DNA of 64,000 nucleotides from contig NZ_SGWY01000003.1 of the NCBI RefSeq assembly GCF_004216665.1, positions 558,001-622,000 on the forward strand, given 5' to 3'. Position 1 is the stretch's first letter; each line of letters opens with the position of its first letter. The position numbers and the translations under genes are program-made. Shown in pieces: positions 24,791 through 58,502 of the stretch. The DNA is from Agromyces ramosus. Lineage in GTDB: Bacteria > Actinomycetota > Actinomycetes > Actinomycetales > Microbacteriaceae. Below the pieces are notes generated by a model. The model saw nothing but the letters and a program-made list of their open reading frames with translations. It made no database searches and was not told the origin of the DNA.

Positions 24791-24846
24791 GGTACCGAAG
24801 GACCGAAGTACCGAGGTACCGAAGTAGCGAGGTACCGAGGTACCGC
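24791..24846. repeat. Octanucleotide array, RGTACCGA type (about 7 units)
   Basis: Seven consecutive 8-base units with consensus (A/G)GTACCGA, two of them with one substitution. The array fills part of the 258-bp gap between the MFS gene and DUF1761, which contains nothing else I recognise. The same unit recurs at 28420-28449 and 43559-43583. Confidence 0.85.
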
Positions 24847-24937
24847 GTCTGGAACGCACAACTCCGTCGTTCCATCCCGGTTGCGCGGCAACCCCGCGTT
24901 GGGGGACTCGCTCGGGCGGCCGGCCGCGAGAGCTCCC

Positions 24938-25369
24938 TCAGACGGTGCCGGCCGGGGGCCAGACGCCGATGATCACGGCCATGACGACGATCGTCACGAG
25001 CTCGTGCGCGATGTTCAGCACGGTGAGCGACGACGGGCGGCCCTCGAAGGCGTCGTGCGTGATGAACCGCGCGGCCGTGAAGCCCGCCCAGAGGATCACT
25101 CCCGTGAGGAGCGCCGCCACCAGGTAGCCGCCGCCGTAGAAGTGCCACGCGATCGTCGAGGCGCCCGCGAGCACCCAGGCCGTGACGAAGCTGACGAGCA
25201 CCGTCAGGACCAGCGGCATCACCGCGCTCGCGCCCGGACGATCCATGTCGACGTTCGCGAGCTTCGCCCACCGGGTGCCGAACACGCCCCGCGCGTACCA
25301 GATCGCTCCCACGGCCATGCTCGACGCCGTCGCCAGCAGTACCGCCCAGTAGTTGATCTCGGGGACCAT
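24938..25369 (-). CDS. DUF1761 membrane protein
   Basis: 143 residues with four hydrophobic segments. The start MVPEINYWAVLLATASSM followed by GAIWY and a first cytoplasmic piece GVFGTRWAKL matches DUF1761, a small family of integral membrane proteins of unknown function. The whole family length is present. A broken copy of its first 24-26 codons lies at 9047-9125. A TACGCT at about 25445 on the minus strand could be its -10 box, giving a leader of about 75 bases. Confidence 0.8.
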   Translation of the reverse strand: MVPEINYWAVLLATASSMAVGAIWYARGVFGTRWAKLANVDMDRPGASAVMPLVLTVLVSFVTAWVLAGASTIAWHFYGGGYLVAALLTGVILWAGFTAARFITHDAFEGRPSSLTVLNIAHELVTIVVMAVIIGVWPPAGTV

Positions 25370-25724
25370 GTCTCCGCCTCCTCGTCGCGGCCGGGGCCGC
25401 GCATCGTCGCGCCGCGCTGCTGTCGCCGTGCTGCCGCTGCGCGAGAGCGTACTCCCGCGGCGGTTCCGGTGGGTCGCAGCGCGCCGAACGGATGCCGCGA
25501 CGCTGCGCCCGCGGCATCCGCTCGGGGTCTTCGCTCAGCACCGGCCTCACGTGCGCCCTGCGACCAGGCGAAGCGGATGCCGCGACGCGCAGGCCGTACG
25601 TGTCAGACGCGATTCGCCCACGTGACGTCGATGAGGGCTTCCCCACGTAGGGTCGATGAAGGAGGTGCCCTTCACTTCTGGCCGTGCGTGCTGACGCCCC
25701 GCGATCTCGACGAGGGCGCTGACG
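25370..25724. other. Long intergenic stretch without a gene
   Basis: No reading frame here is convincing. It contains a hairpin of the GGATGCC word (25489-25520), another lone copy near 25575, and a loose direct repeat around 25618-25665 sharing CACGT and TCGATGA. The tandem repeat at 25725 follows directly. Confidence 0.5.
25489..25520. terminator. GGATGCC/GGCATCC hairpin
   Basis: CGGATGCCGCG (25489-25499) pairs perfectly with CGCGGCATCCG (25510-25520) across a 10-base loop. It lies upstream of the DUF1761 gene and far from any 3' end, so here it may not act as a terminator. Confidence 0.4.
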
Positions 25725-25848
25725 CTCACCTGTTCTCCACAACGCTGACGCTCACCTGTCCTCCACAACGCTGACCCTCACCTGTCCTCCACAACGCTGA
25801 CCCTCACCTGTCCTCCACAACAGCTGACCTCACCTGTCCTCCACAACG
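25725..25848. repeat. 26-bp direct tandem repeat, five copies
   Basis: Unit CTCACCTGTCCTCCACAAC followed by GCTGACC, starting at 25725, 25751, 25777, 25803 and 25829. The period is exactly 26 in every step. The first copy has TTCTCC for TCCTCC, the fourth has an AGCTGAC end, and the fifth diverges after CACAAC. It ends about 90 bp before the start of the HNH gene. There are no unique spacers, so it is not a CRISPR. Confidence 0.9.
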
Positions 25849-25940
25849 AGGATGCAAGTGCAGTTACTCACAGCCAATATCCCTGATCAGCCCATATTTC
25901 ACCGCCGCGCAATGTCAGTGGGTCCCTGCAGGATGGAGAC

Positions 25941-27332
25941 ATGGAACAGCCCCTCCACCTCATCGAACGTGACATCGAGGAGTTGCGTGCGGCATGGGGC
26001 GGAGCGATGCCGGCATTCAGCGCGATCGTCGGAGCGACGCAAGCCGAGGTCGAGCAGATGAGCGACGCCGGGCTCGTACGCGTGACCGACGCACTCGCCC
26101 GGGTTCGACGCGACGCCGAGGCGCTGCTCGCGCGCGTCGCCGCCGAGGTGTCGAAGCGGTCGAGCTCGGAGCTGGGTTCGTCCAGCCTCGCCAGGGCGCA
26201 GGGGTTCCACAACCCGGTCCGGCTCATCGCCGCATCCACCGGAGCGTCCCGAAGCGACGCGGCGAAGCTCATCGCGGTCGGCACCGCCACCGCGGAGCGA
26301 CACTCCTTCGTCGGTGAGCGGTTGCCTGCGCGGCATCCGCACGTCGCCGCCGCGCTCGACTCCGCCACGATCGGTGTCGACGCGGCTTCCGCGATCACGG
26401 CGATGCTCGAGCGCGTGCGGGTTCGAGCCGATCCCGCACTGGCCGACACGACCGAAGCGATACTGGTCGACCTCGCCGCTCGGGTGCCGCTCGAGCTCCT
26501 CATCCGCGGAGTCCGCGAGGCGGAGGCCCGACTCGACCGCGACGGCGTCGAACCGCGCGAGGAGGAGCTCCGCAGCGAACGCTCGCTCACGATGCGTGAA
26601 GACGGGGCGGGTGTGGTGCACCTGCACGCGCGCCTCGATCCCGAGACGGCGGCGCCAGTCAAGGCGGCGATCGAGGCGCTCGTGAGCGACGTCCTTCGCC
26701 GCCGCGAGCCGAGCGCCGGGGATTCTGGCCCGGTCATCGACGACCGCCGCTCGATTCCCCAGATCCAGGCCGACGCCCTCGCCGCGCTCGCTCGCCACGC
26801 CCTCGGCTGCGAACAGACGCTCGCCCCACTGGCGAAAGCCACGGTCGTGGTCCGCATCGACCTCGACTCGCTCGTCGACGGGCTCGGGCACGCACGTATC
26901 GACGGCATCGATCAACCCATCTCTGCATCCACGGCGCGGCGCATGTCGGCCGACGCCCAGCTCATTCCCGCCGTGCTCGGTGGCGAGAGGCTCCCGCTCG
27001 ACCTCGGCCGCGCGGCCCGGTTGTTCAGCCGGGCGCAGCGGCTCGCATTGGCCGAGCGCGACGGCGGATGCGCCTCCTGCGGCCAGAACATCGCGTACGT
27101 CGACGCCCATCACATCAGATGGTGGGATCGTGACATCGGCCCGACCGACCTTGCCAACGGCGTCATGCTCTGCAGCTTCTGCCACCATAGAATTCACCGC
27201 GAAGGCTGGGACATCCGCGCAACTCGCAACGAGGTGTGGTTCATCCCGCCACCGCACGTCGATCCTGCGCAGACGCCTCGACTCGGCGGGCGCGCCCGAT
27301 TCGACCTCCCCCGAACCGTGGTCGCAGCATGA
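25941..27332 (+). CDS. DUF222 / HNH endonuclease (REP13E12-like)
   Basis: 463 residues. The N-terminal two thirds is the helical DUF222 domain (STGASRSDAAKLIAVG, VHLHARLDPETAAPVKAA). The C-terminus is an HNH nuclease with a CxxC pair at 377-380, the metal/catalytic AHH at 389-391 and a second CxxC (CSFCHH) at 411-416, all intact. Such genes are scattered in many copies in Actinobacteria and related to the 13E12 repeat family of mycobacteria; a biological role has not been settled. The tandem repeat immediately upstream could be a target or a trace of its mobility. ATG 25941 is preceded by GGAGA. Confidence 0.88.
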   Translation: MEQPLHLIERDIEELRAAWGGAMPAFSAIVGATQAEVEQMSDAGLVRVTDALARVRRDAEALLARVAAEVSKRSSSELGSSSLARAQGFHNPVRLIAASTGASRSDAAKLIAVGTATAERHSFVGERLPARHPHVAAALDSATIGVDAASAITAMLERVRVRADPALADTTEAILVDLAARVPLELLIRGVREAEARLDRDGVEPREEELRSERSLTMREDGAGVVHLHARLDPETAAPVKAAIEALVSDVLRRREPSAGDSGPVIDDRRSIPQIQADALAALARHALGCEQTLAPLAKATVVVRIDLDSLVDGLGHARIDGIDQPISASTARRMSADAQLIPAVLGGERLPLDLGRAARLFSRAQRLALAERDGGCASCGQNIAYVDAHHIRWWDRDIGPTDLANGVMLCSFCHHRIHREGWDIRATRNEVWFIPPPHVDPAQTPRLGGRARFDLPRTVVAA

Positions 27333-27451
27333 GCGTGACGCCCGGGGTTCGCATGCTGCGGCATGAACTGACCCGCAGGATGGCCGGCTGCTGCCGACGC
27401 CTGATCGGCGCGCGCGGCCCGACCAGGGCGGCCGGTCGCGCAGCCGTACCT

Positions 27452-28054
27452 TCAGCGTCGGGCCGCGTCGGCCGCGTCGAGCTTCTCGAGCAACCGCACG
27501 GAGGTGCGCCACGTGCGCACGGTGATCTGCTGGAAGATCGGCATCGCCATGAACTTCTGAATGCGGGTCTTCGTCGCCTTGGCCGCCACCCGGGAGAAGT
27601 AGATCGCGCCCGGGCCCGGCGCCACGGAATCGACTCCCTCGCGCAGTTCGGGCATCGCGGCGAGCGCCTCCTTGGCCGTGAGCGGGTGCTTGAGGAAGTA
27701 GATGTCGCTGCGCAGCTTCGGCGATCCGTGATCCGCTGGCGCGGCATCGATCGTCTGGGCCAGCTCGTCGCGTGACCGGATCACGACGAGCAGCGGCGTC
27801 CCGAACCGCTCCTCGAGCATCGCCTCCACCGCCGCCTCGAGCTTCGGCCCCTTCTTGCCGTCGGCGCTGAACAGCACGTTGCCGCTCTGCAGGTACGTGC
27901 CGACATCGGCATATCCCGCCTCCTCGAAGCACGCGACGAGCTCGGGCATGCGAATCGGGTTCCGGCCTCCCACATTGATGCCCCGCAGCAGCGCGACGAA
28001 CGAGGAGCCAGCGCGGGCGGCATCCGCTGACTTCTTCTGAGCGGCGGCGGTCAT
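27452..28054 (-). CDS. DUF1697 protein
   Basis: 200 residues. The family hallmark FVALLRGINVGGRNPIRMPEL is near residues 19-40, followed by YLQSGNVLFSA and, towards the end, the ARTLRTWRT-like block seen here as ITVRTWRTSVRLLEKL. DUF1697 proteins are cytoplasmic and of unknown function. The ATG at 28054 opens with a short basic leader (MTAAAQKK). It is alone, converging on the HNH gene. Confidence 0.85.
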   Translation of the reverse strand: MTAAAQKKSADAARAGSSFVALLRGINVGGRNPIRMPELVACFEEAGYADVGTYLQSGNVLFSADGKKGPKLEAAVEAMLEERFGTPLLVVIRSRDELAQTIDAAPADHGSPKLRSDIYFLKHPLTAKEALAAMPELREGVDSVAPGPGAIYFSRVAAKATKTRIQKFMAMPIFQQITVRTWRTSVRLLEKLDAADAARR

Positions 28055-28293
28055 GTGAACATGGCTACCAGACCGAAGCGGATGCCGCGACCGGCGCTGC
28101 GTGCCACCCCTGTCTCGGGAATCCTCAGTCGTCATCGCGTCGATCTGGCCGCAGGCCCAGTGCAACCGGGACTTCGGCGTGCACCAGACGGCTCCATCCA
28201 TCGTGTTGCGCTGTGGTTCGCGGTGGCGCGAGATCTTCGTGTGGTCGCCGACGCGTTGCCGAAGCGGGATGACCCGCCTGGTCCGGTGGGGAG

Positions 28294-28373
28294 GTGGCGA
28301 AATGGCGAAGTGGCAAAGTGGCAAAGTATCGAAGTAGCGAAGTGGCGAAGTGGCGAAGTGGCGAAGTGGCGAA
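28294..28373. repeat. Octanucleotide array, GTGGCGAA type (10 units)
   Basis: Ten uninterrupted 8-base units. Six are GTGGCGAA or one base off; the others are GTGGCAAA (twice), GTATCGAA and GTAGCGAA. It lies in the 477-bp gap between divergent genes DUF1697 and ppk2, whose remainder shows no gene. Confidence 0.9.
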
Positions 28374-28419
28374 GTGGACACGTACCGGCTTCGAGGGCGA
28401 GGCTCCGCACGCAGACGCG

Positions 28420-28449
28420 GTACCGAAGTACCGAAGTATTGAAGTACCG
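28420..28449. repeat. Octanucleotide array, GTACCGAA type (nearly 4 units)
   Basis: GTACCGAA twice, GTATTGAA once and a partial fourth unit, 46 bp downstream of the GTGGCGAA array in the same gap and about 80 bp before the ppk2 start. Confidence 0.8.
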
Positions 28450-28531
28450 TGCAGCTCGACGAGGAACTATCCGGCGATCGCGGCGCGGCGCCGCGGCATC
28501 CGCCCTAGGCTTCGAACGCGGGAGGTGCCGA

Positions 28532-29347
28532 ATGACCAAACGGATGCCGAAGGCGCTCTACGAGCGCGAGCTCGCGGCGCTGCAGGCCAAGCTCGTCGAG
28601 ATGCAGGCGTGGGTGCAGCACTCGGGCGCGAGGGTCGTGGTGATCTTCGAGGGGCGGGATGCCGCGGGCAAGGGCTCGACAATCAAGCGGGTGTCCGAGT
28701 TCATGAACCCGCGCGTCACGCGCATCGTGGCGCTGCCGACGCCGAGCGCCCGCGACCGGACGCGCTGGTACTTCCAGCGGTACGTGTCGCACCTGCCGGC
28801 GGCGGGCGAGATCGTGCTCATGGACCGCTCCTGGTACAACCGCGCCGGCGTCGAGCGGGTGATGGGGTACTGCACGAACGAGGAGTACCACCGGTTCCTG
28901 CACCAGGCGCCGATCTTCGAGCGGATGCTCGTGGAGGACGGCATCATCCTCCTGAAGTACTGGTTCAGCGTGTCCGATATCGTGCAGGAGGAGCGGTTCC
29001 GGTCGCGCCTCGAAGATCCGATGCGGCGGTGGAAGCTCAGCCCCAACGACGTGCTCTCGATCACCAAGTGGGAGGACTACTCCCGCGCGAAGGACACGAT
29101 GTTCGTGCACACCGACATCGCCGAAGCGCCCTGGTACGAGGTCGAGAGCGACGACAAGCGGCGCTCGCGCATCAACATGATCGCCCACCTGCTGTCGAAG
29201 GTGCCCTGGCACGCGGTCGAGCCCGAGGCGATCGTGATCCCGCCGCGTCCGGAGTCCACCGGGTACGAGCGACCGCCGCGCGGGTGGATGAACACGGTGC
29301 CGGATGTCGCGCAGAAGCTGATCGACGGCACGGCGTCGGTCGACTGA
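28532..29347 (+). CDS. ppk2: Polyphosphate kinase 2 (PPK2 class I)
   Basis: 271 residues, the usual length of single-domain PPK2. It transfers phosphate from polyphosphate to nucleoside diphosphates (typically ADP or GDP). Walker A FEGRDAAGKGSTIKR is at about residues 38-52, Walker B MDRSWYNRAGVERVMG at about 97-112, and the lid KYWFSVSD and DDKRRSRINMIAHLL are present. GGAGG at 28521-28525 lies 6 bases before the ATG, which sets the start. It is a single-gene unit with two octamer arrays upstream. Confidence 0.95.
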   Translation: MTKRMPKALYERELAALQAKLVEMQAWVQHSGARVVVIFEGRDAAGKGSTIKRVSEFMNPRVTRIVALPTPSARDRTRWYFQRYVSHLPAAGEIVLMDRSWYNRAGVERVMGYCTNEEYHRFLHQAPIFERMLVEDGIILLKYWFSVSDIVQEERFRSRLEDPMRRWKLSPNDVLSITKWEDYSRAKDTMFVHTDIAEAPWYEVESDDKRRSRINMIAHLLSKVPWHAVEPEAIVIPPRPESTGYERPPRGWMNTVPDVAQKLIDGTASVD

Positions 29348-29422
29348 CGCGGCCGAGCCTGCTCGACCGCGCCTGAGCAAGCGTCGGTACCTGAGCGACA
29401 CGGTGGCGCTGGGCGCCCTCCC

Positions 29423-29860
29423 CTACATCGCCGGGTGCCTCTCGACGCCCGTCGTCGCAAGGCGACGCCATCGACGCCAGGCGATGACGAAGATCGCCGC
29501 CGCCGCCACGCGTACCGCGATGTTGGCGATCAGCACGCCGGTGACCGGGGCTGACGCCAGGTAGACCAGCTCGAGCACGGCGGTCGAGAGGTGGAACACC
29601 ACGAAGACCGCGACGATGAGCCCGACGGCCGCCGGGTCGGTCATGCGGATCGCGCCGAGCGAGAGCATGGCGATCGCGAGCTCGGCGGCGGCGAGGAAGT
29701 ACGAGAGCAGGTAGGCCTCGGGGTCCAGCTCGATGCCGACGGTGGCCGGGATCGCGGCCGGCAACACCGCGAGCATCACCGCCGCGGCGAGCGTGATGAT
29801 GCCGTGCACGATCAGCACGATCCGGAGCAGGCCGCTCACGCGAGATGCCACGAGCCGCAC
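29423..29860 (-). CDS. Small integral membrane protein
   Basis: 145 residues with four hydrophobic segments separated by short loops and a basic, histidine-containing C-terminus. I do not recognise the family. The GTG at 29860 is only 2 bases past the stop of the HD-domain gene, and no good Shine-Dalgarno precedes it, so translation is probably coupled. A GTG three codons further in is an alternative. The pairing suggests a membrane partner or simply an operon mate of the HD protein. Confidence 0.65.
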   Translation of the reverse strand: MRLVASRVSGLLRIVLIVHGIITLAAAVMLAVLPAAIPATVGIELDPEAYLLSYFLAAAELAIAMLSLGAIRMTDPAAVGLIVAVFVVFHLSTAVLELVYLASAPVTGVLIANIAVRVAAAAIFVIAWRRWRRLATTGVERHPAM

Positions 29861-29862
29861 GT

Positions 29863-31467: not shown

Positions 31468-31561
31468 CGTGCCACCCCGGTGGCGTCGAGCTCGCCGTCG
31501 CGCTCGCCGCCGAACTCGCTGCCGCGGCATCCGTTGACTGACGAGCCCGCGGATACCGTGG

Positions 31562-32029: not shown

Positions 32030-32174
32030 GGCTACCAGACGTCGCAGGCGCGAGGAAGGCCGGCGCGTGCGGTGCGGTCGGGTCAGGCCCTTGGTCCATT
32101 GCCGCGACGAGGCGTGCGGAGTAGATTCCGCCCGACTGGGGTGCGGCGTTCCGCCGGCCGAGGAGGGGATCGAC

Positions 32175-32636
32175 ATGGCTGAAGGAGAGACCGGTCTCGA
32201 ACCGACGATCGAGATCACTGAGGGCGACTACCCGGAGATCCTGCGGATCGTGGCATCCGACGGGGAGGTCGACTCGTACCTGGAGAGCGCCGGGATCGGG
32301 CCCGACGTATTCCGCGACGACACGGATGAGGGAGGGGGCCTCTGCGCGAACGAGCGGGCAGCGCTCGGCAGTTCGTTGCTCTACGTCGTCGAGGTCGGCG
32401 AGGTGACCGACGCGTCCGAGTCGGAGGGCCGGATCACCCTCGCAGCATCCGCCGCCGGCTCGCTGATGGCCGCCCTGACCGAGGTGAGCAACGAGGGCCT
32501 GCGGTTGGTCGAAGCCCTGGAGGGTGAGAAGCCGGATGCCGCGGCGCGACTCCGGGAGACGTTCGAGCTCCTCGGCCTCGACGGCGACCGGCTGCGGCGC
32601 GCGGTCGAGGAACGGTCGTCCGGCGCGGGCGCCTGA
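32175..32636 (+). CDS. Hypothetical acidic protein
   Basis: 153 residues, strongly acidic, without membrane segments or signal peptide and with no motif I recognise. AGGAGGGG at 32161-32168 lies 6 bases before ATG 32175, and codon use (third-position GC) is that of a real gene. It is divergent from the flavin-binding protein gene and followed by a long octamer array. Confidence 0.7.
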   Translation: MAEGETGLEPTIEITEGDYPEILRIVASDGEVDSYLESAGIGPDVFRDDTDEGGGLCANERAALGSSLLYVVEVGEVTDASESEGRITLAASAAGSLMAALTEVSNEGLRLVEALEGEKPDAAARLRETFELLGLDGDRLRRAVEERSSGAGA

Positions 32637-32735
32637 CGAGCACAACGAACACACCGGGGCGGGCGGAGCTGCGCGCACGTGCACCCGCGTGGCGTACTCT
32701 CGGCGCGGGCGCCTGAACCCGAGATCGCGGACGCG

Positions 32736-33002
32736 ACCGCATAACCGCACAACCGCACCACCGCACCACCGCACAACCGCACAACCGCACCACCGCACGA
32801 CCGCACGACCGCACACCCGCACGACCGCACACCCGCACGACCGCACCACCGCACCACCGCACGACATCACGACCGCACGACCGCACGACCGCACGACCGC
32901 ACGACCGAACAACCGCACAACCGCACGACCGCACCGCACCGCACCGCACCGCACGACCGCACAACCGCACAACCGCACAACCGCACAACCGCACAACCGC
33001 AC
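32736..33002. repeat. Octanucleotide array, CCGCACNA type (over 30 units)
   Basis: The longest array in the window: about 33 units of CCGCACNA, where the seventh base is A, G or C (CCGCACAA, CCGCACGA, CCGCACCA mixed), with one two-step slip near 32935-32955 (CCGCACCGCACCG). It fills most of the gap between the acidic protein and hxlR. Every frame reads as a short peptide repeat, so long open frames here are an artefact. The remaining gap bases show nothing. Confidence 0.92.
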
Positions 33003-33021
33003 GAGAAGCGTCAGCGAAACA

Positions 33022-33387
33022 TCAACCCACTGGGATGACGCGCCCGGCGTTCGCCGCCACCCAATCGACCAGCGGCAGCATCCGCTCCATGAGGTCGCGC
33101 CCGAGGTCGGTGAGCGAGTACTCGACCCGCGGCGGCACCTCGGGAAACGACGTGCGCTCGACGAGCCCGTCGGCCTCGAGGGTGCGCAGCGTCGAGGCGA
33201 GCATCTTCTCGCTGATGCCCTCGACCTCGCGGCGCAGCTCGCCCCAGCGGTGCGTGCCGTCGGTCAGCGCCAACAGCACGAGCACGCCCCACTTGCTCAT
33301 GATGTGATCGAGCACGACCCGTGTGGGGCATCCCTCGGTGAAGACTTCTCCGGACTTCTCCCGGATCTGCGCAAGACTTACTGCCAT
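33022..33387 (-). CDS. HxlR-family transcriptional regulator
   Basis: 121 residues of winged-helix type. CPTRVVLDHIMSKWGVLVLLAL near residues 20-41, RWGELRREVEGISEKMLASTLRTLEADGLV and the wing PPRVEYSLTDLG are typical. Cys20 is the position used for redox or quinone sensing in relatives such as YodB and QorR. It is divergent from a QorB-like reductase gene, the same arrangement as E. coli ytfH-ytfG, so it most likely represses that gene and itself. Confidence 0.93.
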   Translation of the reverse strand: MAVSLAQIREKSGEVFTEGCPTRVVLDHIMSKWGVLVLLALTDGTHRWGELRREVEGISEKMLASTLRTLEADGLVERTSFPEVPPRVEYSLTDLGRDLMERMLPLVDWVAANAGRVIPVG

Positions 33388-34487: not shown

Positions 34488-34494
34488 ACGCAGG

Positions 34495-36233: not shown

Positions 36234-37346
36234 ATGACCGCGCTTCAGCCGTTCGAGCTGCACGTGCCCGACGAGACCCTCGACGACCTGCGAGCACGTC
36301 TCGAGCGCACGAGGCTGCTCCCCGATTCTCCGCGCAAGCCTGCCTCTGGCCTCAGCGCCGCCTACCTCCGCGAGCTCGTCGACAGCTGGATCGACTGGGA
36401 CTGGCGCGCCCGCGAGGCGTGGCTCAACCGGCATCCGCAGTTCATCGCCGGGATCGGCGACGCCGACGTGCACTTCGCGCACCTGCGATCGCAGCGAGCG
36501 GATGCCCCGGCGCTGCTCGTCATGCACGGCTGGCCCCACACCTTCGCCCTGCAACTCGACTTCGCCGACATGCTGCCCGACTTCCATGTCGTCGTCGCGA
36601 GCTTGCCGGGCTTCGCGTTCTCGACGCCGTACGCCGAGGGCCCGATGTCCGAGAAGCGCCTGGCGGCCACGATGCACGCGCTCATGACCGAGGTACTCGG
36701 CTACGAACGCTACGTCACCTACGGCGAGGACGTCACGGCCAACGTCAGCGACCTCATCGCGGCGCGATACCCCGATCACGTCGCCGGCATCGTCGCCACG
36801 CACGCGCACTTCCCCACCGGCGACGAGCGTGAGGCGCTCACGGATGCCGCGGAGCGCGCGTTCTTCGACGACCTCGCCGCCCGCCACAGCCCCGACGGCG
36901 CATACGGGCACGTGCAGGCGACCCGGCCCGACACGCTCGCCGTGGGGCTCAACGACTCGCCGGCCGGGCTGCTCGCCTGGCTGGCCGAGAAGCTCGTCGA
37001 GTGGAGCGACACCCCGCCCGGCGACCCGTCGGCGGTCGAGCGGCGCATCTCGCGCGACCGCATCCTCACCGAGGCGATGATCTACTGGGTCACGCAGTCG
37101 ATCGGCTCGTCGTTCCGCCCGTACTACGAGGGTGCCGACCAGCCCGACCCGATCCCGCCTACGTCGGTGCCTGCGGCGGTCCTCATCCAGCGGCACGAGG
37201 CCGGCTACCCCGAATCGCTCGCTCGCGGGCATTACCTCGACCTGCGCGTGTTCGATCGCCTCGACGAGGGCGGGCACTTCACGGTCGCGGAGGTGCCCGA
37301 GGAGATGGCCGCCCGGGTGCGGGAGTTCGTGCGCTCGCTCGGTTGA
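36234..37346 (+). CDS. Epoxide hydrolase, alpha/beta-hydrolase with EHN domain
   Basis: 370 residues. The N-terminal EHN domain is present (LQPFELHVPDETLDDLRARL; SAAYLRELVDSWIDWDWRARE), then the alpha/beta-hydrolase core with the oxyanion loop HGWPHTF. The nucleophile elbow expected as G-x-D-W-G reads TYGEDVTANV, giving Asp in the nucleophile position, and the C-terminal catalytic His is in DEGGHFTVAEVPEE. This is the bacterial microsomal-type epoxide hydrolase layout. It would hydrate epoxides to diols; the natural substrate is unknown. Confidence 0.88.
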   Translation: MTALQPFELHVPDETLDDLRARLERTRLLPDSPRKPASGLSAAYLRELVDSWIDWDWRAREAWLNRHPQFIAGIGDADVHFAHLRSQRADAPALLVMHGWPHTFALQLDFADMLPDFHVVVASLPGFAFSTPYAEGPMSEKRLAATMHALMTEVLGYERYVTYGEDVTANVSDLIAARYPDHVAGIVATHAHFPTGDEREALTDAAERAFFDDLAARHSPDGAYGHVQATRPDTLAVGLNDSPAGLLAWLAEKLVEWSDTPPGDPSAVERRISRDRILTEAMIYWVTQSIGSSFRPYYEGADQPDPIPPTSVPAAVLIQRHEAGYPESLARGHYLDLRVFDRLDEGGHFTVAEVPEEMAARVREFVRSLG

Positions 37347-37380: not shown

Positions 37381-37534
37381 ACCGCACAACCGCACAACCG
37401 CACAACCGGGCAACGGCACATCCGCCCGACGCACCCGCGCAAACCCGAACCGCACAACCGCACAACCGCACAACCGCACAACCGCGCAACCGCGCAACCG
37501 CGCAACCGCGCAACCGCACAACCGCACAACCGCC
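37381..37534. repeat. Octanucleotide arrays, CCGCACAA / CCGCGCAA type
   Basis: Three to four units of CCGCACAA at 37382-37408, a degenerate stretch, then about eleven units at 37450-37534, of which four in the middle are CCGCGCAA. It begins 34 bp after the epoxide hydrolase stop. Same class as the array at 32736-33002. Confidence 0.88.
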
Positions 37535-37562
37535 GCGACGATGACTCCCGAGGAGTCGCCAC

Positions 37563-37588
37563 CACTTCGCCACTTCGCTACTTCGCCA
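37563..37588. repeat. Short GTGGCGAA-type array in inverse orientation
   Basis: On the minus strand this reads GGTGGCGAAGTAGCGAAGTG, about three units of the GTGGCGAA class seen at 28294 and 58361. It lies 29 bp from the CCGCACAA array in the same gap. Confidence 0.75.
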
Positions 37589-37623
37589 CCGGGATTTCCC
37601 GGGGATGAAGCACTCCCGACCGA

Positions 37624-43393: not shown

Positions 43394-43929
43394 GCCCCGC
43401 GAGGCGCGCGAGCGAAGCGATGCGTCGCGGCGCGCCAAGTTCGTGGCGCCTGTCGGGCTGAACTCGGCGAGGCGGATCGACCGGAGGCGGTGCGTCGCAA
43501 TGCTCGCGCGTGCGGGCGCGCCCCCACGACTCCCGGACACGTCGTCCCCGAGATATCCGGTACCGAAGTACCGAGGTACCGACGGTTTCGAAGAGAAGTA
43601 AAGAAGTCGACGAAGTGCCGAAGCAGGCGGAGTGGAGAGGTCGAAGAAGTGGAGAAGCGGAGAAGTGGAGAAGTGGAGAAGTGGAAAAGTAGAAAAGCAG
43701 AAAAGTAGAAAAGTAGAAGAGTTCTGCGGAGGGCAACTGCCGATGCCGACGTGCTTCCGCGTTCTGCGGTCGCGATGGTCCGCAGGCGCGCGCGATGCGA
43801 GCGGTCAGCGCAGTGCGCTCGGCGCGGGCGGTCGGGCGGCGCGCTCGGCGCGGGCGGTCCGGCGGACCGCGCGCGTGCAGTGCCGTCAGTGGCAGGGCGC
43901 CGGCGGTCAGGCGCGGGCGATCGGGCCGG
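43394..43929. other. 536-bp intergenic region with repeats, no gene
   Basis: 43394-43500 contains two related pieces (around 43387-43430 and 43458-43498) sharing GGGCTGA, CGAGGCG and TGCGTCGC, probably a local duplication. Then come octamer arrays (43559-43722) and, at 43815-43833 and 43841-43859, a 19-bp direct repeat GCGCTCGGCGCGGGCGGTC with a 26-bp step. I see no coding potential beyond frames opened by the repeats. Confidence 0.6.
43559..43722. repeat. Octanucleotide arrays, GTACCGAA then GTGGAGAA / GTAGAAAA types
   Basis: GTACCGAA-type units at 43559-43583, a degenerate part with GAAGTGCCGAAG and GAAGTCGACGAAG, then about eleven purine-rich units (GTGGAGAA four times, then GTGGAAAA, GTAGAAAA, GCAGAAAA, GTAGAAAA twice) ending in AGAAGAG. 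The array drifts gradually from one unit to the next along its length. Confidence 0.88.
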
Positions 43930-49046: not shown

Positions 49047-49087
49047 AGGTCTTGGTTCGAGACGATTCCCCGAAAGGCGGCGAGGCC

Positions 49088-50519: not shown

Positions 50520-50591
50520 GCGGCCAGATTGCCATGCCTCGCAAGGAAGCCGCCACTTGTCCGGGTGGACGAGCGGGCGGATACTTGCCCC

Positions 50592-52205: not shown

Positions 52206-52318
52206 CGACCCGCGACGGCCGGCCTCGCTCCACCGCGGCGCGAATTGGTCATTTCTGCCGACGCGGCCCCGAGGCGGCATCCGTAGCGTCGCGGACATCA
52301 GCCGATCGGGAGGTCACC

Positions 52319-53431: not shown

Positions 53432-53653
53432 TCCGGAAGATCATCCGGCCGCAGCGGCCGTCGCGCAAGCTTTCGCGACGGCGCGATTCCACGACAGGAA
53501 CCGCGTTCGGCCGACGGCATGGTCGCGCTCCCACCGCAGATGCTGCGAGCACGAAAGATGACCTCGGTCAACATCTTCCCTCCCTCGAACAGGGGTGTTA
53601 GGTTTTCCGCACTGTGCCCGGCGATCCCGGGCATCACTTTCGAAGGAGAACCC

Positions 53654-55951
53654 GTGAAACGACGCACGCGCGGCCTGCTCGCCGTGGCCGCAGCGAGCGT
53701 GACGGTGGTGTCCGGTGTGGCATTCGCACCGGCCGCGATCGCCACACCCGCCGACGACTCGAACCCGTCCGCTGCCCAGCGCCTCGACAACCGTCCCGGC
53801 CCGCTCACCGAGCGCCAGAACGAGCGACGCAAGGCCGCCCAGAAGCTGATCCTCTCCGGCCAGGCGTCGCCCGGCGAAGACGGGGTCGTGCAGCTCGGCG
53901 AGGACAAGTACTACGAGGCATCCGTCACCGGAACCGGCCGCCTCTTCACGATCCTGTCCGAGTTCGGCGACCAGGTGAGCGGCAGGCTCGGATCGACGCC
54001 CGGCCCGATGCACAACGAGATCCCGAAGCCCGACCGTGCCGTGAACAACAGCACGCACTGGATGGCGGACTTCAACCGCGAGTCGTACGAGGAGCTCTTC
54101 TTCGGAGCCGGCGAGTCGTTCGCGGACTTCTACACGAAGCAGTCGTCGGGCGCGTACACGGTCGCTGGCGAGGTGAGCGACTGGGTGCAGGTGCCCGGCA
54201 ACGCGTCCTCCTACGGCGACAACGCGGTCGAGGACTTCGGCGGTGCGTGGCAGTTCATCGAGGACTCGGGCAACGCCTGGTACCAGTCCCGGCTCGACGA
54301 GGGCAAGACGGTCGACGAGATCAAGGCCGAGCTCGCGTCGTTCGACGTGTGGGACCGCTACGACGCCGACGGCGACGGGAACTTCGACGAGCCCGACGGC
54401 TACCTCGACCACTTCCAGGCCGTGCACGCCGGTGAGGGCGAGGACGCGGGCGGCGGCGCACAGGGCGAGGACGCCATCTGGTCGCACCGCTGGTACGTCA
54501 ACTCCACCGACTACGGCCTCACCGGCCCGGCGGGTGCGAAGTTCGGCGGCGCGCAGATCGGCGACACCGGCATCTGGATCGGCGACTACACGGTGGAGGC
54601 GGAGAACGGCGGCCTCGGCGTGTTCGCGCACGAGTACGCGCACGACCTCGGCCTGCCCGACTTCTACGACACGGCCGGCGGCGAGAACAGCACCGGCTTC
54701 TGGACGCTCATGTCGAGCGGCTCGTGGCTCAACAAGGGCGCTGACGACATCGGCACGACCCCGAACTACATGGGTCCGTGGGAGAAGCTCCAGCTCGGCT
54801 GGCTCGACTACTCGGTCGTGAACCCCGGCACGACGGATGCCGCGTTCACGCTCAGCCCCGCGGCCCTGCAGGCCGACGGCCAGGATCAGGCGCTCGTCAT
54901 CGACGTGCCCGACCAGTCGGTGGAGAACGCCTACACGACGCCCGCCTCGGGCTCGAAGGCCTGGTGGACCACCAGCGCCGACGACCTGAACACGACGCTG
55001 ACCCGCGAGCTCGACCTCTCGGGCGTGCGTTCCGCGACGGTCACGGCGAAGGCCTGGTACGACATCGAGGCCGGGTACGACTACCTCTACGCCGAGTACT
55101 CGACCGACGGCGTGAACTGGACGACGGCGGGCACCCTGTCCGACACGTCGAACGGCAAGTGGACGACGTTGCGCTACTCGATCCCCGGCGGCAACGCGGC
55201 GACCCAGTTCCGCTTCCGCTACCAGAGCGACGGCGGCGTGCACCTCGCCGGCGCCTTCATCGACGACATCGTCGTGAAGAGCGGCGGCACCACGCTGCTC
55301 ACCGACGACGTCGAGAACGACGGCACCGGCTGGGAGGCGGCCGGCGGCTTCCGGCAGAGCAGCGGCACCGAGGTGTCCTCGGGCGACCGCTACTACCTCG
55401 CCGAGAACCGCGCCTACGTGGGCTACGACGCCACGCTCGAGAAGGGCCCGTACCAGTTCAGCAACGCACTGACGAAGCCCGACTGGGTGGAGCACTTCGC
55501 CTACCAGGACGGCCTGCTCGTGTGGGCGATCGACGAGACCTACACCGACAACAACACCATCGAGCACCAGGGCCACGGCCTCGCGCTCCCGGTGGATGCG
55601 GGCGTCGCGCCGATGACCTACCCCGACGGCACCATGCCGAGCAACCGGCGCCAGCCGTTCGACGCCACCTTCGGCCTGCAGACGATGGACAAGGTCGTCC
55701 TGCACAAGGAGATCGTCGTGGGCAATGGCAAGAACCAGACCGTGCAGACGGTCGAGGCGGTCGGCTCCGACGGAACGAGGCAGCAGACCGCGACGTTCTC
55801 CGACGCCGACACGGACGCGTTCTTCAGCCCGCTCAACCCGCTCGCGGGCGTCTACGTCGCGGGCCACGGCGTGTCCGTGACCGTGACCGGGCAGAACCCC
55901 GGCGGCACCATGACGGTCGACGTCACCAACCCGGTCGCGAAGCAGCAGTGA
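53654..55951 (+). CDS. Secreted immune-inhibitor-A-type metalloprotease (M6)
   Basis: 765 residues. GTG 53654 has AAGGAG 5 bases upstream and opens directly on a signal peptide (VKRRTRGLLAVAAAS, cleavage near AIATPA at about residues 30-32). A propeptide follows, then the catalytic domain with the zinc site HEYAH at 326-330 and LGLPDFYDTAGG downstream, the M6 pattern of Bacillus InhA and related proteases. The region after residue 500 contains a MAM/concanavalin-like beta domain (LRYSIPGGNAATQFRFRYQ) and an end without anchor, so it is released. It would degrade external proteins. Confidence 0.93.
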   Translation: MKRRTRGLLAVAAASVTVVSGVAFAPAAIATPADDSNPSAAQRLDNRPGPLTERQNERRKAAQKLILSGQASPGEDGVVQLGEDKYYEASVTGTGRLFTILSEFGDQVSGRLGSTPGPMHNEIPKPDRAVNNSTHWMADFNRESYEELFFGAGESFADFYTKQSSGAYTVAGEVSDWVQVPGNASSYGDNAVEDFGGAWQFIEDSGNAWYQSRLDEGKTVDEIKAELASFDVWDRYDADGDGNFDEPDGYLDHFQAVHAGEGEDAGGGAQGEDAIWSHRWYVNSTDYGLTGPAGAKFGGAQIGDTGIWIGDYTVEAENGGLGVFAHEYAHDLGLPDFYDTAGGENSTGFWTLMSSGSWLNKGADDIGTTPNYMGPWEKLQLGWLDYSVVNPGTTDAAFTLSPAALQADGQDQALVIDVPDQSVENAYTTPASGSKAWWTTSADDLNTTLTRELDLSGVRSATVTAKAWYDIEAGYDYLYAEYSTDGVNWTTAGTLSDTSNGKWTTLRYSIPGGNAATQFRFRYQSDGGVHLAGAFIDDIVVKSGGTTLLTDDVENDGTGWEAAGGFRQSSGTEVSSGDRYYLAENRAYVGYDATLEKGPYQFSNALTKPDWVEHFAYQDGLLVWAIDETYTDNNTIEHQGHGLALPVDAGVAPMTYPDGTMPSNRRQPFDATFGLQTMDKVVLHKEIVVGNGKNQTVQTVEAVGSDGTRQQTATFSDADTDAFFSPLNPLAGVYVAGHGVSVTVTGQNPGGTMTVDVTNPVAKQQ

Positions 55952-56008
55952 TCCGGTGCGCGCGTTCCTGATCCGCGAGTGATCCGATCCGCGCGCGATC
56001 GCACCGCG

Positions 56009-56038
56009 GTGGGCCCGTCTCCTCGGAGGCGGGCCCAC
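56009..56038 (+). terminator. Terminator after the M6 protease gene
   Basis: GTGGGCCCG (56009-56017) with CGGGCCCAC (56030-56038), and an inner CTCC/GGAG pairing, form an almost continuous stem 58 bp beyond the protease stop. Confidence 0.8.
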
Positions 56039-56111
56039 TCGTGTCGCCCCGGCGTGCGCAGCTGCCGGCGGTTCGCGCCGCCGGGGATGTGCCGGGCGCT
56101 CCTCCCCTGCC

Positions 56112-56528
56112 ATGATCGAGCGGATGGGACAGTGGACGGGATACGGCCAGGGCGCCGCCGAGGGCATCGGCTGGGCGCGCTTCTTCGGCTGGTCGTCCTT
56201 CGGGTTCGGGGTGACCACGGTGGTGCTCTGCTTCGTCATCCCGCTCGCCGGGCAGTACGGACGCACGGCGTGGCTGGTGCTGTTCGGTTCGGTCGCCGTC
56301 TGGCTCGGCGGCATGTCGGTGTCGCGCTACCGCTCGCTCGGACAGCGGTGGCCGGCCATCCCCGTGATCGGCATCGGCCTCGGATGCCTCACCATCGCGA
56401 TCATGGTCTACGCGTTCACGGTGCTCGTGCTCGCGTCGTACGGCATCGAGTGGCCGGCGCCCGCGCACTGGCTCGGCCCGCCGGGCGCGCCGGATCCGCT
56501 GGCGCCGCTCGATCAGGTGGACGCCTGA
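56112..56528 (+). CDS. Small membrane protein of unknown function
   Basis: 138 residues with three or four hydrophobic segments (WSSFGFGVTTVVLCFVIPLA; TAWLVLFGSVAVWLGGMSV; AIPVIGIGLGCLTIAIMVYA) and a Pro-rich C-terminus. No family is recognised. The ATG at 56112 and an internal one at 56124 are both possible. It stands alone between the protease terminator and an SDR gene. Confidence 0.65.
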   Translation: MIERMGQWTGYGQGAAEGIGWARFFGWSSFGFGVTTVVLCFVIPLAGQYGRTAWLVLFGSVAVWLGGMSVSRYRSLGQRWPAIPVIGIGLGCLTIAIMVYAFTVLVLASYGIEWPAPAHWLGPPGAPDPLAPLDQVDA

Positions 56529-56610
56529 ACCGGTCGCCAGGCCGCCGCCGCAGGGTCAACCCCCTGACGCGGTCTCGTGCCGCGGGTAGAGTGCGCCGCG
56601 GAGGGGGCAC

Positions 56611-57639
56611 ATGAGCGGGGAGGGCGTACTGGTCACCGGCGGCACCGGATTCGTCGCCGCCCACTGCATCGTGCAGCTGCTCCACGCCGGGTACCGGGTG
56701 CGCACCACCATCCGCTCGCTCGATCGGGCCGATGCCGTGCGCGAGATGGTCCGTCGCGGTGAGGCCGACCCGCGAGGCATCGAGTTCGTCGCCGCCGACC
56801 TCATGCACGACGACGGATGGCCCGAGGCCGTCGCCGACGCGACCTACGTACTGCACGTCGCATCCCCGCTTCCGGTGCGTCAGCCGAAGGACGAGGACGA
56901 GCTGATCAGGCCCGCCAGGGACGGCGTGCTGCGGGTGCTGCACGCGGCGCGCGGAGCCGGCGTGAGGCGCGTGGTGCAGACCTCGTCGTTCGCGGCGATC
57001 GGATACCGCGCGGATCCGGGCCGGCCGTTCACCGAGCAGGACTGGACCGACCTGACGCGGCCTCACCTCACGCCCTACATCAAGTCGAAGACCATGGCCG
57101 AGCACGCCGCGTGGGACTTCGTCGACCTCGAGGGCGACGGCCTCGAACTCTCCGTCGTGAATCCGGTGCCGATCTTCGGGCCGGCACTCGGGCCGGACCT
57201 CTCGACGTCGCTCGCCGTCCTGCTCGGCATGCTCAACGGACGGGCGCCCGCGGTGCCGCCGGGCGCCACGACCGGGGTCGACGCGCGCGACGTCGCCGAC
57301 CTGCACGTGCGGGCGATGACGCATCCCGACGCCGCGGGCGAGCGGTTCATCGCCGTGGCCGGCGACCCCATCTCGTACCACGACCTCGCGATGCTGCTGC
57401 GCGACCGACTCGGCGCCGATGCGAAGCGCGTGCCGACGCGCGTGATGCCGCGCTGGCTCGTGCGCGCGGGCGCGCTCGTCAGCACCGAGCTGCGCGCGAT
57501 CGCGCCGCAGATGCGCCGTGCGCAGGGCGCCTCGCACGAGAAGGCCGAGCGGATGCTGGGGTGGGAGCCCCGCTCGACCGAGGACGCGATCGTCGCCTCG
57601 GCCCAGAGCCTCGTGCGGCTCGGGCTCGTCAAGGGTTGA
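56611..57639 (+). CDS. Dihydroflavonol-reductase-like NAD(P) epimerase/dehydratase
   Basis: 342-residue extended SDR. GGTGFVAAHCIVQLLHAGYRV at residues 10-30, VLHVASPLPV, QTSSFAAIGY and the catalytic Tyr-Lys in YIKSKTMAEHAAW match the aldehyde/dihydroflavonol reductase-like group. Acts on carbonyl compounds with NADPH; natural substrate unknown. ATG 56611 is preceded by GGAGGGGGC. A low-complexity repeat follows the stop and belongs to the next gene. Confidence 0.85.
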   Translation: MSGEGVLVTGGTGFVAAHCIVQLLHAGYRVRTTIRSLDRADAVREMVRRGEADPRGIEFVAADLMHDDGWPEAVADATYVLHVASPLPVRQPKDEDELIRPARDGVLRVLHAARGAGVRRVVQTSSFAAIGYRADPGRPFTEQDWTDLTRPHLTPYIKSKTMAEHAAWDFVDLEGDGLELSVVNPVPIFGPALGPDLSTSLAVLLGMLNGRAPAVPPGATTGVDARDVADLHVRAMTHPDAAGERFIAVAGDPISYHDLAMLLRDRLGADAKRVPTRVMPRWLVRAGALVSTELRAIAPQMRRAQGASHEKAERMLGWEPRSTEDAIVASAQSLVRLGLVKG

Positions 57640-57681
57640 GTCCGCCGTCGGCCCACCGCGACGGCGAGCCGAGCCGTGCCG

Positions 57682-58176
57682 TCACGCGCCTGCGCCGTGG
57701 CGTGCCGCGCCGCGTCGCGCCGTGCCATGGCGTGCCGCGCCGTGCCGCGCCGTGGCGTGCCGCGCCGCGCGGCGCCGCGGCGGCGCAGCCTCAGGCCTCG
57801 GCCCAGACGCCAGCTCGTTCCCGCTCGGGTCGACGAAGTGGAAGCGCCGCCCGCCCGGAAAGGCGTACGGCCCGTTCACGATCTCGCCGCCGGCCGCCGT
57901 GACCGCCGCCAGGGTGGCATCGAGGTCGTCGCTGAAGAGCAGCACGAACGGCCCGCCGCGCGTTCCGGCGCTCGCCCCGCCCTCGGCGAGCGCGAGGCCG
58001 CCCGCCTCATCGCCGCCGGACTCGGCCGACGTGCGGATGCCGGAGTAGCCGTCGCCGTACGACGTGAACGTCCACCCGAACGCGGCGCCGTAGAAGTCGC
58101 GGGCCGCCTGCATGTCGGTGACGGTGATCTCGACGTAGTCGATCGAGTGCGGGATGCGGTGCGTGTGACCAGCCAT
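57682..58176 (-). CDS. VOC-family protein with repeat-encoded C-terminal tail
   Basis: 164 residues. A glyoxalase/VOC domain fills residues 1-125 (SIDYVEITVTDMQAARDFYG, GWTFTSYGDGYSGI, GPFVLLFSDDLDATLAAV, RRFHFVDPSGNELA), where such proteins normally stop. The remaining 37 residues are an Ala-Arg-His repeat (ARHATARHGAARHGTARRGA) encoded by the low-complexity DNA at 57685-57790. The tail is likely a read-through of a repeat expansion that destroyed the original stop. Metal-binding His/Glu pattern is incomplete, so enzyme activity is uncertain. Confidence 0.8.
   Translation of the reverse strand: MAGHTHRIPHSIDYVEITVTDMQAARDFYGAAFGWTFTSYGDGYSGIRTSAESGGDEAGGLALAEGGASAGTRGGPFVLLFSDDLDATLAAVTAAGGEIVNGPYAFPGGRRFHFVDPSGNELASGPRPEAAPPRRRAARHATARHGAARHGTARRGAARHGAGA
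57685..57790. repeat. Low-complexity GTGCCGCGCC-like repeat
   Basis: Imperfect tandem decamers close to CGTGCCGCGC, with an 18-base direct repeat CCGTGGCGTGCCGCGCCG near 57695 and again near 57760. It lies between a SDR gene end and the VOC domain and is translated as the VOC tail on the minus strand. Confidence 0.75.
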
Positions 58177-58312
58177 GCGCCCACCCTGCCATCGACGGCC
58201 GACACCGTCGGCCGGGGTAAGAGCCGGGGGCCCTGGAGGTGGGGTGGGGGTAAGGCCGGGGGCCGGGGCCCTCGGGCCGCGGGTTGGGAGACACTTTCCA
58301 TCCGCTGCGGCG

Positions 58313-58502
58313 GTGCCCAAGTGGCGAAGTGCCCAAGTGCCCAAGTGCCCAAGTGCCCAAGTGGCGAAGGAGCAGCCAAGTGGCGAAGTGGCCAAGTGGC
58401 GAAGGAGTAGCCAAATGGCCAAGTGCCCAAGTGGCGAAGTGGCGAAGTGGCGAAGTGGCGAAGTGGCGAAGTGGCGAAGTGGCGAAGTGGCGAAGTGGCG
58501 AA
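58313..58502. repeat. Octanucleotide array, GTGCCCAA / GTGGCGAA type (about 23 units)
   Basis: 190 bp: GTGCCCAA and GTGGCGAA units mixed at the left, two 11-base irregular units (GGAGCAGCCAA, GGAGTAGCCAA), GTGGCCAA and ATGGCCAA, then nine consecutive GTGGCGAA at 58431-58502. It lies in the 401-bp gap between VOC and deaminase genes. The first 130 bp of that gap is a G-rich stretch without a gene. Confidence 0.92.

Follow-up and report, generated by a model that had tools for sequence, protein, structure and literature searches.

Octanucleotide tandem arrays in the intergenic DNA of Agromyces ramosus: a possible composite element with a slippage-variable core and a second satellite

Short tandem repeats between bacterial genes

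Long simple sequence repeats (SSRs) with units of 5–11 bp were reportedly described by Mrazek and co-workers in 2007. The arrays treated here, found in the window (the whole 64-kb stretch of DNA that was analysed), have a unit within these limits, directly repeated in tandem in at least three copies, and they resemble long SSRs in that a unit of greater length is repeated in tandem between the genes of a high-GC genome. They differ in that the unit of one class, class A, is common to several species and loci and has flanking boxes in congeners.

Other systems resemble the arrays in one respect or another. BOX of Streptococcus pneumoniae is a composite intergenic repeat in which two end modules enclose core modules set in tandem, in variable number; it is over-represented between convergent genes, a bias that can be viewed as evidence of mobile, parasitic entities (PMC3049150). 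Heptamers of the GGGNATC type in Xanthomonas and Nostoc are tandem, spread genome-wide and enriched in non-coding DNA, where a low number of copies is preferred; their period is 7, they form G-quadruplexes and they favour gaps between aligned ORFs (PMC4692102). The TAACTGA repeats of Beggiatoaceae are one short tandem unit at many intergenic sites, patchily distributed over distant phyla, most of them lying within several nucleotides of a start codon in the BOGUAY genome (PMC4679880). Finally, Mesorhizobium ciceri has a species-restricted, octamer-derived satellite, (AGGGGAGT)2 (PMC6749651). The unit strings of our arrays were not found in the literature searched. A search for octanucleotide repeats gave no match, one for tandem repeats of Agromyces gave a single paper, on a Streptomyces genome, and a broader one for actinobacterial repeats gave nothing relevant in the titles and abstracts of the 8 matches listed out of 55.

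Arrays of the window and of the genome

A preliminary description of this DNA had placed octanucleotide arrays at six loci, never inside a gene. TRF finds period-8 arrays at all six of these places, and all the window arrays fall in gaps between predicted genes, whose borders come from a custom GC-frame gene caller working on the sequence only. The period of 8 was confirmed, although not as strictly as had been claimed, as TRF reports indels in the arrays at 32.7, 37.4, 43.6 and 58.3 kb. The units are contiguous with no unique spacers, so these are not CRISPR arrays. Among the nine TRF families of the window with a score of at least 60 and a period that is not a multiple of 3, five have period 8, the 24.8-kb array entering this tally as a 24-mer.

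We distinguish class A, (AAGTNNNN)n, from class B, (ACCGCACN)n. The idea that all units are related is not supported: the AAGTNNNN variants intermix within arrays or gaps at 24.8, 28.3–28.4, 43.6 and 58.3 kb, whereas CCGCACNA forms a family of its own, and nothing was found to suggest that it shares an ancestor with these variants. The class A array at 24791..24845 (plus strand; TRF row 24792–24845; GTACCGAA/GTACCGAG/GTAGCGAG, about 6.8 units, 84% match) lies between an MFS gene (23282–24604, minus) and a DUF1761 gene (24938–25369, minus); scored with a PWM from congener loci, described below, its right flank reaches p=0.037 and its left p=0.92. Two more class A arrays share the divergent gap between a DUF1697 gene (minus) and a PPK2 gene (plus). 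The one at 28286..28377 (plus; GTGGCGAA, 11.5 units) has no significant box on either side by the same PWM (p=0.58 and 0.17), and the one at 28420..28449 (plus; GTACCGAA/GTATTGAA, 3.8 units) scores p=0.15 on the left and p=0.048 on the right against random intergenic windows, which gives a candidate right box at 28450..28469 (plus), weak when taken alone. The convergent 37.4-kb gap, between an epoxide hydrolase gene (plus) and an F420-type oxidoreductase gene (minus), holds both classes: a class B array at 37381..37533 (plus; ACCGCACA/ACCGCGCA, 19.6 units), without a significant box by the congener PWM, and a class A array at 37562..37589 that reads GTGGCGAA/GTAGCGAA on the minus strand (3.5 units), with a candidate left box at 37590..37609 (minus; p=0.0028) and p=0.73 on the right.

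At 43560..43722 (plus; overlapping TRF rows over 43593–43722), in a convergent gap between a nitronate monooxygenase gene (plus) and an EamA transporter gene (minus), a class A array passes from GTACCGAA/GTACCGAG through degenerate GTGGAGAA to GTAGAAAA; its flanks score p=0.17 (left) and p=0.017 (right). The last class A array, at 58319..58502 (plus; GTGCCCAA then GTGGCGAA, 22.2 units with short interruptions), lies between a glyoxalase-like gene (57682–58176, minus) and a deaminase gene (58578–59051, minus) and has no significant box on either side by the congener PWM (p=0.12 and 0.52). GTACCG units remain in three window arrays, at 24.8, 28.4 and 43.6 kb. The other class B array of the window, at 32736..33002 (plus; ACCGCACN, 32.9 units), occupies the convergent gap that separates an ORF with no Pfam match (32175–32636, plus) from an HxlR regulator gene (33022–33387, minus), again with no significant box by the congener PWM.

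Each class has nine strict loci genome-wide. Four copies of AAGTNNNN match the genome 43 times and three copies of ACCGCACN 79 times, while the reversed control patterns give 0, so the arrays are far from chance expectation; since they occur elsewhere in the genome, the multi-locus family that had been proposed stands. The arrays are dense in the window and sparse elsewhere: 11 of the 18 strict loci of both classes are packed into 6.3% of the genome, and period-8 arrays scoring at least 60 number five in the window versus three in a 640-kb genome sample, which was regularly spaced and left out 420–800 kb of contig C3, where the dense region lies, an omission that does not affect the genome-wide pattern counts. 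In this sample GTACCGAA is rare (2 times), against 59 times for its rotation CGAAGTAC.

The host is not a cyanobacterium but a high-GC actinobacterium, with about 71% GC, and the earlier framing by cyanobacterial repeats is wrong. The commonest units, AAGTGGCG, AAGTGCCG and AAGTCGCG, have at most two consecutive G on either strand and thus lack the G-runs of a G-quadruplex; the minor unit AAGTGCCC has three consecutive G on the opposite strand. Slippage driven by hairpins was rejected as a general cause, as AAGTGGCG, AAGTGCCG and AACCGCAC, set beside random octamers of the same GC, fold worse than the majority; good folding is seen for AAGTCGCG and AACCGCGC, and moderate folding for the genus-wide unit AAGTACCG, 37% of random octamers being equal or better. 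A CGNAG minihairpin core was likewise discarded as a general rule: it is suggestive in Phycisphaerales and missing from several units. AAGTGGCG recurs across phyla in 39 stretches, a count that comes from a scan for this octamer alone.

Class A arrays and their flanks across the genus

Of the 60 genomes of the genus that were compared, 16 contain GTACCGANGTACCGANGTACCG, our own among them, and none contains the reversed control; in those 16 genomes the unit GTACCGAA recurs as arrays, mostly at unrelated gaps. The 15 other genomes contain 35 arrays of at least three units, with copy numbers of 3–7, and in 19 of the 35 both edges are shared (CG before the core, G after it). The two-unit form is rarer than the three-unit form, at 10 places in 5 genomes in a search that required both edges; slippage that started from short seeds would not predict this, which is a point against the reading preferred below. 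The cores of our genome are longer and more varied than those of the sampled congeners.

Several orthologous gaps could be compared. In one orthologous trio (L231/L240/L256) the array has 3, 3 and 2 copies, one of them with an extra degenerate unit, and at 634 kb of C3 our genome carries GTGCCGAA where the orthologous gap of congeners G009 and G014 carries GTACCGAR/GTACCGAA. Two further pairs, L232/L241 and L142/L245, keep the array while nearby intergenic DNA aligns poorly. Long flank matches are confined to orthologous gaps or shared neighbouring genes, the same-gene matches sometimes sitting on the other side of the array; a bigger mobile element with long shared flanks was therefore rejected, as nothing else goes beyond short matches of 34–91 bp. 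Some array-free gaps are shorter. Between matching flanks at the 37.4-kb site, G009 has 16 bp versus 284 bp in our genome, and a second array-free congener gap 89 versus 341 bp; at the 43.6-kb site G020 has 25 versus 601 bp, and between congeners the values are 98 versus 232 bp (G013 versus G457) and 91 versus 191 bp (G014 versus G478). Not every orthologous gap is simply shorter, as seen at 24.8 kb (137 versus 163 bp) and 32.7 kb (2485 versus 423 bp). Convergent gaps are favoured, with 10 of 21 own loci (p=0.0009) and 14 of 33 congener loci (p=0.0004), both against 16.5% of the gaps of our genome.

Class A arrays of congeners are flanked by boxes that are symmetric and weak but significant. 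Over 31 loci the summed information, edge columns excluded, is 4.6 bits on the left and 5.2 bits on the right, compared with a mean of 1.5 and a maximum of 2.7 bits in 1000 random intergenic sets from our own genome; no column outside the edges exceeds 0.8 bit. Compared with the right box in reverse complement, the left box gives a correlation of r=0.49 at shift 0 and negative values once shifted by 3–4. The two resemble inverted repeats, with weak conservation, and the A/T positions of the flanks are symmetric and about 11 bp apart. A hairpin formed by the two boxes was rejected, there being no covariation and own arms pairing no better than swapped ones.

The boxes were also sought at class A arrays free of GTACCG. 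Twelve held-out loci, A. salentinus and H66 included, match on the left (p=0.0046) and on the right (p=0.0081), in register in 5 of 12 on each side, with orthologues excluded from training and the shuffled letters of the loci themselves as null. In our own genome alone, the eight such arrays give no significant match (p=0.074 and 0.125), with 1 of 8 and 2 of 8 in register. A wider set of 14 own loci gives p=0.029 and 0.008, values to be read knowing that it took in GTACCG-bearing arrays and L133:12081, orthologous to training locus L245, that L105 shares one flank with L243, and that L137:6312 (unit AAGTGCGG) was counted in both the class A and the class B sets. The negative controls are not wholly clean: 32 non-Agromyces arrays reach p=0.027 for the left box, and the class B tests include isolated right-box results of p=0.03 and 0.02, without register. 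Class B arrays show no consistent boxes in the congener PWM tests. Neither low-copy, box-flanked ancestors (own-genome sample, score of at least 8) nor target-site duplications (by eye, in the flanks inspected) were seen.

Possible origins and relation to known systems

Slippage products, protein-binding platforms, transcription insulators and a selfish element had all been put forward for these arrays. For the AAGT class the data favour, in our view, a small interspersed element whose core varies in length, and for the ACCGCACN class slippage alone; we give about an even chance to the whole proposal that class A is a small composite interspersed element of Agromyces with a slippage-variable core and class B a slippage satellite. 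The element would consist of a left box of about 20 nt, GTNNCG(AAGTNNCG)n and a right box of about 20 nt, with each box a weak inverted copy of the other, and AAGT-class arrays would be, or derive from, the variable core of this non-coding element; our own arrays without GTACCG units may be the same element. It would settle in intergenic DNA, most often in convergent gaps, where insertion would be least harmful, a mobility by which a new site would acquire its core. Core copy number would shift by whole units, with slippage as the probable engine, and the core unit would be replaced in concert (GTACCGAA to GTGCCGAA, for example), most simply through replication slippage or unequal exchange. 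The ACCGCACN arrays would be a second octamer satellite, without boxes, grown by slippage in the lineage of our genome. The proposal requires no advantage for the host, and the element, presumably without function, is probably not a switch but parasitic or neutral. The weakness of the boxes counts against an element, since young MITE-like copies would be expected to share them more strongly.

There are other readings. If all the arrays were plain long SSRs, slipped in place from a chance seed and surviving only because octamer indels do their harm within genes, there would be neither element nor boxes. This is the best reading for class B, which lacks consistent boxes, and SSRs of longer units have been described from non-pathogens whose genomes are large and high in GC (PMC4692102). 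Other octamers also exist, such as GTCTGTGG x10 in G013 and the octamer arrays of Phycisphaerales, and our GTACCG-free class A arrays alone miss box significance. For class A such an origin would leave unexpected the recurrence of one unit in the 35 arrays from 15 congener genomes, the shared edges and boxes, and the match of the 12 held-out loci. Class A is not easily put down to slippage from random seeds, given GTACCGAA arrays in 16 of 60 genomes, mostly in unrelated gaps and with boxes; the argument is only partial, as single copies of the rotation CGAAGTAC are common although GTACCGAA is rare. Taken for both classes, we find this reading rather unlikely. That the boxes are not copied with the element but mark the sites at which some machinery prefers to build or insert octamer cores of three or more units seems to us very improbable; were it true, near-perfect cores between weak, symmetric, helically spaced flanks would be the footprint of templated or enzyme-driven repeat addition in bacteria, and a common process would lie behind the CGAAGTNN octamers that recur in Agromyces, Phycisphaerales and some Proteobacteria.

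Two readings give the arrays a task. A protein bound to boxes and core, for chromosome organisation, termination or insulation, with selection keeping at least three copies, would suit the commoner form, the arrays retained in L232/L241 and L142/L245 and the symmetric A/T positions. We consider such a DNA-binding platform improbable, for 44 of the 60 genomes of the genus are without the three-copy form, the sites are mostly non-orthologous, no common gene class adjoins the window arrays and repeats spaced at 8 bp do not keep in phase with the turns of DNA. Still harder to accept, and hardly to be believed, is that a C-rich, G-poor strand transcribed downstream of genes loads Rho as a rut site and ends transcription. 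ACCGCACA and CGCCACTT are indeed C-rich and G-poor, and the 32.7-kb class B transcript is less structured than shuffles (z +2.5), yet the 37.4- and 58.3-kb transcripts are ordinary (z -0.5 and -0.1), C equals G in GTACCGAA and, of the 21 own arrays, 3 are in divergent gaps. The C-rich strand is the sense strand at 6 of 8 co-oriented own loci, too few to decide, and in 1 of 3 co-oriented arrays of A. salentinus and H66, so polarity was dropped as a test for lack of informative loci.

If the composite element, with its very short tandem core, is the right reading, it offers a clean system for studying the spread of identical short units to many loci and the homogenisation of cores. Intergenic octamer arrays of high-GC actinobacteria could then belong to elements and not to bare slippage, and might serve as length-variable typing markers.

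Among known systems, the octamers share with GGGNATC-type heptamers tandem units genome-wide, a non-coding bias and a preferred low copy number, and differ in their period of 8, in commonest units without G-tracts of three or more and in favouring convergent gaps. Like the TAACTGA repeats they are a short tandem unit at many intergenic sites, patchy over distant phyla, but they do not lie beside start codons. With the M. ciceri satellite they have in common an octamer-derived, species-restricted family; the unit is unrelated, and the excerpt of that paper drawn on here mentions no flanking modules (PMC6749651). Unlike BOX, class A has an 8-bp core, weakly conserved end modules of about 20 nt with no stem-loop conservation (neither covariation nor an own-pair advantage) and few loci per genome. 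In layout it is nonetheless like BOX: convergent gaps are favoured, and end modules stand around a variable number of cores, the modules being found for class A in congeners and, for other class A units, only with A. salentinus and H66 included. It is a likeness of layout, and we do not file class A as a member of BOX.

Octamer arrays of the window and the genome

The preliminary description had placed period-8 tandem arrays at six places outside genes, and both points hold. TRF detects arrays at all six (24.8, 28.3–28.45, 32.7–33.0, 37.4–37.6, 43.56–43.72 and 58.3–58.5 kb), and each lies in a gap between GC-frame predicted genes. The flanking genes are mixed (MFS, DUF1761, DUF1697, PPK2, HxlR, epoxide hydrolase, F420-type oxidoreductase, nitronate monooxygenase, EamA, glyoxalase and deaminase), a Pfam match being absent for one of the 12 flanking ORFs. 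The window (G000:C3:558001–622000, in a genome of 3.84 Mb and six contigs) has about 71% GC across most of its length.

Two unit classes can be distinguished. Class A has the unit AAGTNNNN, read with G and T held fixed at positions 3–4; of the 111 units at 11 own loci, AAGTGGCG (37), AAGTGCCG (13), AAGTCGCG (8) and AAGTGCCC (7) are the most frequent. The class B unit is ACCGCACN, where N is A 88, C 76, G 17 and T 3 times over nine loci. Both classes are found genome-wide: the strict class A pattern (4 units) gave 43 matches and the strict class B pattern (3 units) 79, which we merged into nine loci each, with reversed controls of 0. Of the 18 strict loci, 11 crowd into a 243-kb part of contig C3 that makes up 6.3% of the genome (binomial p ~1e-9). 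Period-8 arrays are few outside the window in 32 sampled stretches (640 kb), a sample that omitted C3 420 to 800 kb and therefore under-represents the dense region. One gap on own contig C4, at about 298 kb (L128 7741–8243), holds five unlike short arrays next to one another: ACCGCACA, CCGAAGTA, the heptamer GGGTCGC, a 16-mer made of two octamers, and ATCAACCG.

By TRF, the window also contains a non-octamer array at 25717–25848, on the right of DUF1761, with 5.1 tandem copies of a 26-bp unit (95% match), a 26-bp GC-rich array sharing the intergenic gap of the 43.6-kb octamers (43777–43865), and a GC-rich, GCCGT-like array of period 5/10/25 at the 3' end of the glyoxalase-like gene (57668–57782). 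At window positions 1–8000 the GC content falls to 0.60–0.62, and two large genes on the minus strand have matches to DEAD/SNF2-type helicase domains; both features suggest an island that was acquired, perhaps a defence locus.

Gap orientation and occurrence in relatives

Together with three further TRF-detected loci, the strict loci make 21 own loci, none within a predicted gene. A hand tally, in which a few neighbouring gene calls are low-scoring, gives 10 convergent, 8 co-oriented and 3 divergent gaps. Since 65 of 393 background gaps of at least 20 bp are convergent (16.5%; 640-kb sample), convergent gaps are enriched (p=0.0009). The congener GTACCGAN arrays are distributed similarly (14 convergent, 12 co-oriented, 7 divergent; 0/33 contexts inside a gene), with a convergent excess of p=0.0004 against own-genome gaps.

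In their own-genome form, arrays of both classes are rare in relatives: the strict class A pattern occurs in 3/24 congeners and 0/15 other genera of the order, class B in 1/24 and 1/15, and four copies of CGAAGTNN in 1/396 Actinomycetota genomes, namely the own one. The same octamer unit as in the window recurs in contigs of A. salentinus and of Agromyces sp. H66; those of A. salentinus match stretches of the own genome at 75–89% over at least 300 bp, and the same comparison gave no such match from the H66 contig or a Rhodococcus contig. Together with the GC content, the shared unit and the A. salentinus matches make Agromyces the very probable host. Between matching flanks, the 37.4-kb gap measures 16 bp in congener G009 vs 284 own, and 89 bp in G008 vs 341. 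The orthologous gap at 43.6 kb is 25 bp in G020 vs 601, that at 24.8 kb is 137 bp in G020, array absent, vs 163, and that at 32.7 kb is larger in G009 (2485 vs 423). Congener G013 carries a further octamer, GTCTGTGG, as ten perfect tandem copies (L058 1411–1490, L144 9193–9272); 11 nt separate this array from the stop codon of the gene orthologous to window gene 36234–37346. Downstream of PPK2 the congener repeats differ, with CCTCATTTGAGG palindromes in G002 and CATGTTTTCGGGAGG-like stretches in G024 (L199/L201).

Of 60 genomes of the genus, 16, the own one among them, contain at least three copies of GTACCGAN; the control gave 0. The 35 distinct arrays read among the listed loci, in 15 genomes besides the own one, have 3 copies in 15 cases, 4 in 12, 5 in 5, 6 in 2 and 7 in 1, and long matches between their flanks are confined to orthologous gaps or common neighbouring genes. 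Two-copy elements bounded by both edges are less frequent (10 places in 5/60 genomes, three of them in one tandem stretch of G011) and lie mostly in other genomes than the longer arrays, both forms co-occurring in G456 only; as just 19/35 longer arrays have both edges, this search undercounts. Single copies of GTACCGAA are rare, 2 in 640 kb, against 59 of its rotation CGAAGTAC. In L258 (G011), hairpin-like CCGGTACCGAAGTACCGG variants stand in tandem at a spacing judged by eye as roughly 24 bp; they may be related to the class A core.

The best link of the own arrays with this genus-wide element is the class A array GTGCCGAA at C3:634 kb, whose gap is orthologous to that of a GTACCGAR array of G009, orthologous in turn to a GTACCGAA array of G014. 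From these sequences, the array seems to have persisted and its unit to have changed in concert. In the orthologous pairs L232/L241 and L142/L245 the core is retained and the adjoining intergenic DNA is poorly alignable; in L231/L240 the flanks are alignable too.

Boxes flanking the cores

Edge-aligned left flanks show T at −17/−16 and A at −6/−5, and right flanks T or C at +5/+6 and A at +16/+17. With four redundant rows removed and edge columns excluded, the boxes of the 31 remaining loci hold 4.6 (left) and 5.2 bits (right), the null having a mean of 1.5 and a maximum of 2.7 (1000 sets of intergenic windows drawn at random from the own genome). Taken as its reverse complement, the right box is correlated with the left (r=0.49, shift 0). 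Hairpin formation by box–box pairing was rejected, as the boxes do not pair in this way.

Support for the boxes differs by array group. They are firm for GTACCGAA arrays. For class A arrays of other units the test was cleaned of GTACCG-bearing arrays and training orthologues; including A. salentinus and H66 it gave p=0.0046 and 0.0081, with register in 5/12 on each side, so that boxes are supported there. A 14-locus version, two of whose loci had orthologues left out of training, gave p=0.0043 and 0.0034. The own loci alone were not significant in the cleaned test (p=0.074 and 0.125, n=8), so that it does not show boxes for most of the window's arrays. Two-copy elements were in register in 5/10 and 7/10 (score p=0.053 each side); the negative control of 32 non-Agromyces AAGTGGCG arrays gave p=0.027 left and 0.95 right, with no register. 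Class B arrays have no consistent box.

Class A as a proposed composite repeat

Judged from sequence, the behaviour of class A is that of a composite interspersed repeat made up of box, octamer core and box. Class B agrees with long simple sequence repeats of the plain kind. Slippage may vary the length of the class A core, and the element would be mobile and perhaps without function. Some features are odd: near-perfect cores stand between weak boxes, two-copy cores are seemingly rarer than three-copy ones, and AAGTGGCG recurs in 39 stretches that include Phycisphaerales, Anaerolineae and Burkholderiales, among others. The class A pattern was found in 13/13 genomes chosen from the AAGTGGCG match list, an ascertained count. 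Planctomycete genomes, read in Phycisphaerales stretches (L154, L155, L160, L170, L171, L172, L174), carry several different 7-/8-bp intergenic arrays, some octamers having a CGNAG core (CGAAG, CGGAG, CGCAG).

The pneumococcal BOX element has variable tandem core modules between end modules and is over-represented in convergent gaps (PMC3049150). Its stem-loop feature was not found in class A, for which we claim no membership. We think that the likeness is one of layout, accompanied by the same excess in convergent gaps.
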